Origin: Deferrisomatales bacterium | Lineage (GTDB): Bacteria; Desulfobacterota; Deferrisomatia; Deferrisomatales; Deferrisomataceae | Assembly (NCBI GenBank): GCA_024277875.1 | Contig: JAJRUI010000038.1 | Location: 1 to 64,000 of the forward strand | Reading direction: 5' to 3' | Length of the DNA stretch: 64,000 bases | Shown: in pieces, positions 138-40,220 of the stretch | How positions within the stretch are numbered: the first letter of the stretch is position 1 | Layout: each line of letters opens with the position of its first letter | Program-made: the position numbers and the translations under genes | Notes under the pieces: model-generated | Database searches by the model: none | Seen by the model: the letters and a program-made list of their open reading frames with translations, nothing else | Told to the model about the DNA's origin: nothing

Positions 138-159
138 GGGTTTTTCAGCATCTTGCTAG
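138..159 (+). repeat. Remnant of the intergenic palindromic repeat (copy E, 3' end only)
   Basis: The sequence GGGTTTTTCAGCATCTTGCTA matches the right-hand end of the full repeat at 22696-22716 with one mismatch. The matching left arm of the hairpin is degenerate here, with only a GGGGTTG-like trace further left. The rest of 1-200 looks non-coding. It lies just downstream of the minus-strand gene ending at 201, so it may mark the end of that transcript. Confidence 0.6.
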
Positions 160-22427: not shown

Positions 22428-22796
22428 CAGTTCGTGCTCCCGTGCCGGCCGCAAGGCCGGTTCCCAAGAAGAAGCGCAACGGTACCAGATCACCCGGAAA
22501 AAGGGCAATCGCCCTGCACCCCTCCTGGATGCGGGATTTGCAACCGGCCCCGGGTTGCCCTAACAGGCCGCTGAAAAAGCGGCCTGCGCGCACCCCACGG
22601 AGGGGGTGCCAAATCACGAGGGTTGAAAACCCGAGTGATTTGAAAGACCTCGACGGGGCCGTCCCCGAGAGGCCGCCGCTGAAAAACCCATGGACGGGTT
22701 TTTCAGCATCCTGCTAAGATTCCGCCCCTGCCGGCCGCGCCCGGAGTCGCGTGCGGCCCGCCTTCCGTTCGCCGGACATTCCTCAAGGAGGACCCC
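22428..22796. other. 369-nt divergent intergenic region, mostly occupied by repeat copy A
   Basis: This gap separates the divergent dgt and bmp transcription units. It holds a small CCGGCC-GCAA-GGCCGG hairpin at about 22448-22463 and the full intergenic repeat at 22561-22717. No gene is seen. Promoters for both directions are expected here, but I find no convincing -35/-10 pair. The only clear translation signal is AAGGAGG immediately before the ATG at 22797. Confidence 0.5.
22561..22717 (+). repeat. Full-length palindromic intergenic repeat, copy A
   Basis: Five consecutive hairpins can be drawn. Stem 1 is 22564-22572 with 22578-22586 (loop GAAAA). Stem 2 is 22590-22596 with 22603-22609. 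Stem 3 is 22611-22617 with 22635-22641, and encloses an inner stem 22620-22624 with 22628-22632 across a symmetric GA/GA internal loop. Stem 4 is CCTC...GAGG around GGGGCCGTCCCC. Stem 5 is 22678-22689 with 22696-22707, a perfect 12-bp stem. The ends (TAACAGG... and ...CCTGCTA) are inverted. Compared with copy B, stems 1, 2, 4 and the inner stem 3 differ by paired substitutions that keep pairing. It may be a REPIN- or MITE-like element. Confidence 0.85.
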
Positions 22797-27521: not shown

Positions 27522-27548
27522 CCGGCCGCTTTTTCAGCGACCGGCTAA
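27521..27548 (-). repeat. Partial intergenic repeat, stem 1 only (copy D), possible terminator
   Basis: Immediately after the YufQ stop, CCGGCCGCT (27522-27530) pairs with AGCGACCGG (27536-27544) around TTTTC, with one G-T wobble in one orientation. On the minus strand it matches the first hairpin of the full repeat, including the GAAAA loop and the TAGC end. Its position at the exact end of the ABC operon suggests that it serves as, or has been recruited as, a transcription end or mRNA stabiliser, but no T-tract follows. Confidence 0.65.
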
Positions 27549-30395: not shown

Positions 30396-30448
30396 CTCCC
30401 GCTCCTTTCGCGAAGAGCTTTGTCCAACAGGTCCTCCCCGGGCCGCGC

Positions 30449-30604
30449 TAGCAGGTTGCGGAAAAAGCAACCTGCTACGCGCCCCACGGAAGGGGCGCCA
30501 AATCACGAGGCTTGAAAAGCCGAGTGATTTTAAAGGCATCGACGGGGCCGTCCCCGAGATGCCGTCGCTGAAAAACCCACGGACGGGGTTTTTCAGCATC
30601 CTGC
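30449..30604 (+). repeat. Full-length palindromic intergenic repeat, copy B
   Basis: It has the same five-hairpin layout as copy A in the same orientation. Stem 1 is a perfect 11-bp TAGCAGGTTGC (30449-30459) with GCAACCTGCTA (30467-30477). Stem 2 is GCGCCCC with GGGGCGC, where copy A has GCACCCC with GGGGTGC. Stem 3 has GCTT-GAAA-AGCC where copy A has GGTT-GAAA-AACC, stem 4 has GGCATC with GATGCC instead of CCTC with GAGG, and stem 5 is the CTGAAAAACCC / GGGTTTTTCAG palindrome. It lies between the divergent-free Sel1 gene and the end of the DUF2092 gene. Confidence 0.87.
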
Positions 30605-30633
30605 CGGGGCCGCGTCCGGCATCCGGCGCGCCA

Positions 30634-40140: not shown

Positions 40141-40169
40141 CTCGTCGTCTCCAGCTCGGGTTGCTCTAC

Positions 40170-40220
40170 CAGGATGCTGAAAAACCCCATCCGTGGGTTT
40201 TTCAGCGACGGCATCTCGGG
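40170..40220 (-). repeat. Partial intergenic repeat, stem 5 with half of stem 4 (copy C)
   Basis: These 51 nt match the 3' third of copy B on the opposite strand with only one mismatch. The 12-bp stem GCTGAAAAACCC (40176-40187) with GGGTTTTTCAGC (40195-40206) is intact, with a 7-nt loop. Beyond the GATGCC half of stem 4 the similarity stops, so the element is truncated. It lies between the HD-domain gene end and the cysteine desulfidase start. Confidence 0.85.

Follow-up and report, generated by a model that had tools for sequence, protein, structure and literature searches.

The window, by which we mean the whole stretch of 64,000 nucleotides that was analysed, contains two full copies of a dispersed structured element: copy A at 22561-22717 and copy B at 30449-30604. 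A sequence-only reading made before the present analysis had placed both copies at these positions and proposed a five-hairpin layout, and both statements hold: A and B each fold as five hairpins (H1 to H5) and are 87% identical over their full length. The stem pairs quoted in that reading are correct for both copies, the paired changes in the stems are seen, and the inverted ends are real, in the form CAGG[CC/TT]GC.GAAAAA...TTTTTCAGCATCCTG. Having recognized the hairpins, the ends and the mobility, it overlooked the ANGGAX loops, which match CsrA sites, a 73-nt module, deletion derivatives and the spread of the element through the phylum. The window also holds a third, partial copy and smaller remnants (Table 1).

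Table 1. Element copies, their parts and their remnants in the 64-kb window
Feature	Position	Strand	Description
Copy A, left target duplication (CTAA)	22560-22563		Same four bases as 22714-22717; NTAR duplication established from a set of 57 copies of the same genome
Copy A, element	22564-22713	+	CAGG...CCTG, five hairpins
Copy A, H1	22564-22586	+	Left terminal repeat CAGGCCGCTGAAAAA and its complement
Copy A, H2	22590-22609	+	Stem GCACCCC/GGGGTGC; hexaloop ACGGAG (22597-22602), CsrA-type ANGGAX
Copy A, H3	22610-22642	+	Outer stem CAAATCAC/GTGATTTG, GA/GA internal loop, inner stem GGGTT/AACCC
Copy A, H4	22646-22674	+	Stem around CGGGG-CCGT-CCCCG; where the 73-nt module inserts in long copies
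Copy A, H5	22678-22707	+	GCTGAAAAACCC/GGGTTTTTCAGC; CsrA-type loop ATGGAC (22690-22695); terminator-like on both strands
Copy A, right target duplication (CTAA)	22714-22717
Copy B, left target duplication (CTAG)	30448-30451		Right one decayed to CCGG (30604-30607)
Copy B, element	30452-30603	+
Copy B, H2	30479-30498	+	Loop ACGGAA (30486-30491)
Copy B, H5	30567-30597	+	Loop ACGGAC (30579-30584)
Third copy, 3' remnant	40166-40220	-	End of H4, H5 and right end
Decayed remnant	about 27524-27547	-	H1 region
Right-end remnant	138-158	+	GGGTTTTTCAGCATCTTGCTA

Copy A matches about 42 places in its own 2.98-Mb draft genome (BLAST). A covariance-model search, which the earlier reading had proposed as a check, finds at least 132 matches in this genome at E≤1e-4, a count to which truncated copies and weak echoes on the opposite strand contribute. 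These numbers are far beyond chance. Taken alone, the end motif has 204 occurrences, versus one for a reversed control. Three forms with common ends occur: derivatives of 47-65 bp, the five-hairpin form of about 150 bp and a long form of about 230 bp, in which the 73-nt module, comprising three extra hairpins, is inserted in H4. The derivatives consist either of H5 alone or of a fusion of H1 and H5 that joins the CCCCACGGA repeats present in H2 and in H5; the 47-bp examples (L119, L175) are H5 flanked by both ends, and those of 62-65 bp (L116, L121, L128-L130, L134, L135, L172) have a deletion between the two repeats. At L014 (1498-1696), two copies lie in direct tandem with one common end, the second being cut by the end of the contig.

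Within our sample of the phylum, matches were found in 13 of 297 genomes; carriers outside the order that was searched closely have 6-27 matches each. A family-level search found further carriers beyond these 13, and the element has relatives in six or more families of this phylum. When genome contigs were scanned for the exact pattern, real elements were returned only from the MAG Deltaproteobacteria bacterium NC_groundwater_1907 (G007). Hits of this kind in Chelativorans, Rhodobacter, Demequina and Anaerolineae were rejected, as they have only a 21-base core or no covariance-model match. The phages, plasmids and viral contigs that we searched contain no copy of the element. Plasmids of Paracoccus versutus (L266, L268; 3005-3165) have a MITE-like sequence of roughly 160 bp with the terminal repeat CAGGCTGCTGAAAAAGTCCTT in common and a seemingly unrelated interior. 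A second, unrelated repeat family is present in 40 places in the element's own genome, G000 (e.g., L206-L235), with the sequence TACCCAAGGGGAAGGGCAAGGATCTGGCAATACTTTCGTTGGATTTAG or, in a variant form, TCCGGCAAAACTTTCGTTGG. Several elements adjoin this repeat or nest in it, and the nested ones yielded no clean empty site.

The proposal that the element is MITE-like and mobile is borne out. The element is short, has no transposase gene, is present in many copies and has terminal repeats, a target duplication and ends like those of a DUF772 insertion sequence. Its terminal inverted repeats read CAGG..GC.GAAAAA, and its 4-bp target duplication has the consensus NTAR. We compared the four bases before CAGG with the four after CCTG, and found a full 4-bp duplication for 31 of 57 copies in the element's own genome, against an expectation of 10.7 and a maximum of 18 over 2000 shuffles. 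The corresponding figures for copies in other genomes are 19 of 49, 5.6 expected and at most 14 in shuffles. DUF772 insertion sequences, which we take to belong to the IS5/IS1182-like class, resemble the element in their terminal repeat, CAGG.TG.TGA.AAA, and in their CTAG-type target duplication, but encode a transposase. One of them, of 1295 bp (G303:C26), has at both ends CAGGCTGTTGAAAAAG, which is the terminal repeat of the element. Another (G303:C4) has a GACAAA end variant that is lineage-specific and also occurs in G303's own elements, and pSymA of Sinorhizobium (S. meliloti) has a remnant with the common terminal repeat and CTAG on both sides. No DUF772 gene, as a parent transposase, was found in the assembly of the element's own genome.

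About 16 of 43 copies in this genome are inserted exactly on the stop codon of a neighboring gene (e.g., L003, L004, L036), where neighbors are as called by a simple codon-usage script. At such insertions, the NTAR duplication recreates the neighbor's TAG or TAA stop. Flanks vary between insertion sites, with no conserved flank. The orientation of copies to neighboring genes is unbiased (++ 10, -- 14, -+ 6, +- 5), and a role in 5' or 3' UTRs, for which we looked by way of such a bias, was set aside. We looked for promoters in the element by eye only and noticed none. Because orientation is unbiased and no promoter was seen, about half of the copies would yield the wrong strand.

The sequence-only reading also held that the folded form is selected, and both sets of copies agree with it: compensatory changes affect 14 of 54 pairs within the genome and 47 of 54 across families, numbers that no shuffle reached. 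Among 36 copies of the element's own genome, 96.7% of cells are paired, and the 14 pairs changed on both sides compare with 7.5 in shuffles (0 of 500 reach 14). For 66 matches in other genomes, 92.9% of cells are paired, and the changes on both sides amount to 687 cells versus 180. The cross-family covariation score is 0.503, versus 0.165 for shuffled and at most 0.123 for slid alignments; fitting the alignment to the covariance model favors structure, but the slid controls still score far lower. Stems are almost wholly rewritten between families yet still paired, such that the H2 stem, for example, occurs as GCACCCC, GCAATCC, GCGGCCC, GCGGGCC and GCGCGCC. G-U mismatches outnumber A-C mismatches by 45 to 25 in the element's own genome and 97 to 77 elsewhere. 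Because this excess is slight, it speaks weakly for the strand and for RNA as the selected molecule. In G026, the H2-H5 core is borne on different ends, an arrangement that suggests conservation of the core in its own right. These copies (e.g., L096, L160-L167) have terminal repeats TGCTGCACGG, and their core stands behind a conserved AT-rich leader, AACATAACAAATGTTGTAAAAACAGATRATAACCTGTGAAACATG, which might be a promoter site.

The loops of the element show a pattern of their own. The H2 hexaloop has the form A-N-G-G-A-X, in which the A, G, G and A positions hardly vary and N and X come close to random. The family-weighted entropies of these six positions are 0.47, 1.75, 0.15, 0.07, 0.20 and 1.81 bits, respectively, compared with 1.06 as the loop mean. 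Of 65 H2 loops, 58 contain ANGGA, and the pair that closes the loop is C-G in 64 of 64. The same number of H5 loops (58 of 65) contain A(N)GGA, with the weaker AGGA form being frequent (ANGGA 39, AGGA 19). Two additional loops, AGGAX and ATGGAX, are contributed by the 73-nt module, and all 14 of its copies have GGA in both, while X varies. Thus counted, the + strand has two A(N)GGA loops in short copies and four in long ones. NMR work has defined the high-affinity site of CsrA/RsmE as a hexaloop, ANGGAX, that sits immediately on a C-G-closed stem and in which N and X may vary (PMC4005645). The signature of the H2 loop and its closing pair is equal to this published site.

A blind Rfam scan covered 4,227 families. 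On the + strand of long copies, RsmY ranked first by E-value in 5 of 6 cases (E = 0.0011, 0.018, 0.042, 0.4 and 0.43), all of them sub-threshold: the RsmY scores of long copies are 17.5-22.6 bits, versus a gathering score of 57. For a copy in G308, rsmX is in the Rfam listing at an E-value of 0.23, also below the gathering score. No family matches the element at the gathering score, and the result is, on the scores, a resemblance to RsmY and rsmX and not membership.

The element is like CsrB, CsrC, RsmX, RsmY and RsmZ (RsmY RF00195, rsmX RF02144) in having several A(N)GGA-loop hairpins on one strand, and the sub-threshold alignments of long copies pair both loops of the extra module with GGA loops of RsmY. 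However, it consists of many mobile copies instead of one or a few stand-alone genes, has only two to four GGA loops and no promoter that we could see, lies outside Gammaproteobacteria and stays below the Rfam gathering score. Hairpins with AYGGAY-type loops also characterize TwoAYGGAY (RF01731), which has tandem GA in a stem, and Bacillaceae-1 (RF01690), both proposed CsrA-binding RNAs outside Gammaproteobacteria (PMC4333381). The element has hairpins with such loops as well, but those two motifs occur in other phyla and are not described as transposable, and Rfam gives no match of either to the element even at E≤5-10. ERIC, Correia/NEMIS, BOX and Chunjie (Geobacter uraniireducens) are short and non-autonomous, with terminal inverted repeats, target duplications and many intergenic copies (PMC10969869). 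In contrast to these, each inner hairpin of the element is kept by compensatory change throughout the phylum, with CsrA-type loops; for Chunjie, the comparison is with its published description. Papers on Geobacter and Pelobacter list unnamed 'multicopy nucleotide sequences', and these may include related elements.

Genomes that carry the element usually also encode CsrA. The element's own genome has one csrA gene, whose product matches solved CsrA/RsmE chains. In the phylum sample, csrA is present in 142 of 297 genomes, and in 12 of the 13 carriers. Among genomes of at least 80% completeness in family f19, the element is found in 6 of 7 with csrA versus 1 of 9 without it. These associations are phylogenetically confounded. 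The carrier that lacks csrA, G126, has three copies, of which one (L248) keeps all stems and has lost GGA from both loops; in the other two, the H2 stem is broken. Intact GGA hairpins number 1 of 6 in this genome, versus 117 of 130 elsewhere, a contrast drawn from three copies. G307 has 18 element matches, and no csrA was found in its assembly, which is 71% complete. One long-form copy (L132 1269-1499; G000:C50:64266-64499) is located between convergent genes, some 50 bp downstream from the only csrA gene of its genome and antisense to that gene; this proximity is possibly due to chance.

We consider it probable, on the combined sequence evidence, that the element is a non-autonomous MITE mobilized by a DDE transposase of the DUF772 type and that its cargo is a CsrA-binding structured RNA produced by read-through. 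Transcription, CsrA binding and an effect on the cell are the parts that we infer. Since no promoter is visible in it, its RNA would come by read-through, such that an insertion in the sense direction would lead to + strand RNA from neighboring genes. The A(N)GGAX loops of H2 and H5 would then bind a CsrA dimer, and in some copies the 73-nt module would provide two further CsrA-binding loops. The bound RNA could act as a distributed decoy of CsrA, or as a local CsrA-bound element within its transcript.

The main rival, which we regard as unlikely, is a passive MITE with an inert RNA, in which mutational events such as quasi-palindrome correction and template switching, or else the requirements of transposition, maintain perfect hairpins. 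Such mutational processes could create paired changes without selection, and the unbiased orientation, the lack of a promoter seen and the persistence of many deletion derivatives fit it. However, stem correction predicts the reverse of what we observe, in that the loops are most conserved (0.15 and 0.07 bits at the two G positions of H2) and the stems are rewritten. Nor does it sit well with N and X varying freely inside an otherwise conserved loop, or with the core on other terminal repeats in G026.

We think it improbable that the likeness to CsrA sites is a coincidence, with the hairpins serving another GGA-binding protein or acting at transcript ends as a bidirectional terminator or 3' stabilizer. 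H5 has the form AAAAACCC...GGGTTTTT, which is terminator-like on both strands, and the insertions on stop codons agree with a role at transcript ends. However, a terminator has no need of ANGGAX, either in H2 or in the extra module; some copies, including copy A, are found between divergent genes; and the carriers encode CsrA.

Very little probability attaches to single-stranded or cruciform DNA as the selected form, with a function in recombination, replication or the nucleoid. Given the weak asymmetry between G-U and A-C, pairing alone cannot separate RNA from DNA, but the loop signature lies on one strand and equals a known RNA-protein site, and the scan of RNA families singled out RsmY and rsmX. 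Least credible is the earlier suggestion of a REPIN, which a RAYT (Y1 transposase) would mobilize: the element resembles REPINs in its dispersed hairpins and inverted ends, and its own genome has two Y1 genes, but these are not flanked by element ends. Carriers G026, G178 and G284 have no Y1/RAYT transposase, and no dependence on RAYT is seen. In addition, the element has a 4-bp target duplication, unlike REPINs, and its terminal repeats are those of DUF772 elements.

CsrA-antagonist RNAs are known mainly from Gammaproteobacteria. According to a 2026 paper, none have been characterized in Geobacter sulfurreducens (PMC13407953), and our literature search for a link between MITEs and CsrA found none. 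We see an even chance that a MITE family of the delta-proteobacterial phylum spreads CsrA-binding hairpins, as a mobile CsrA sponge or switch that would constitute a CsrA-titrating RNA outside Gammaproteobacteria and be kept only where CsrA exists. If these MITEs do bind CsrA, decoys or switches would number in the dozens in a carrier genome, and any transposition event could alter the wiring of the CsrA network. They would further provide a clear bacterial example of selection conserving the inner RNA of a MITE in different families, and the question of whether MITEs carry functional RNA becomes directly testable with one purified protein.
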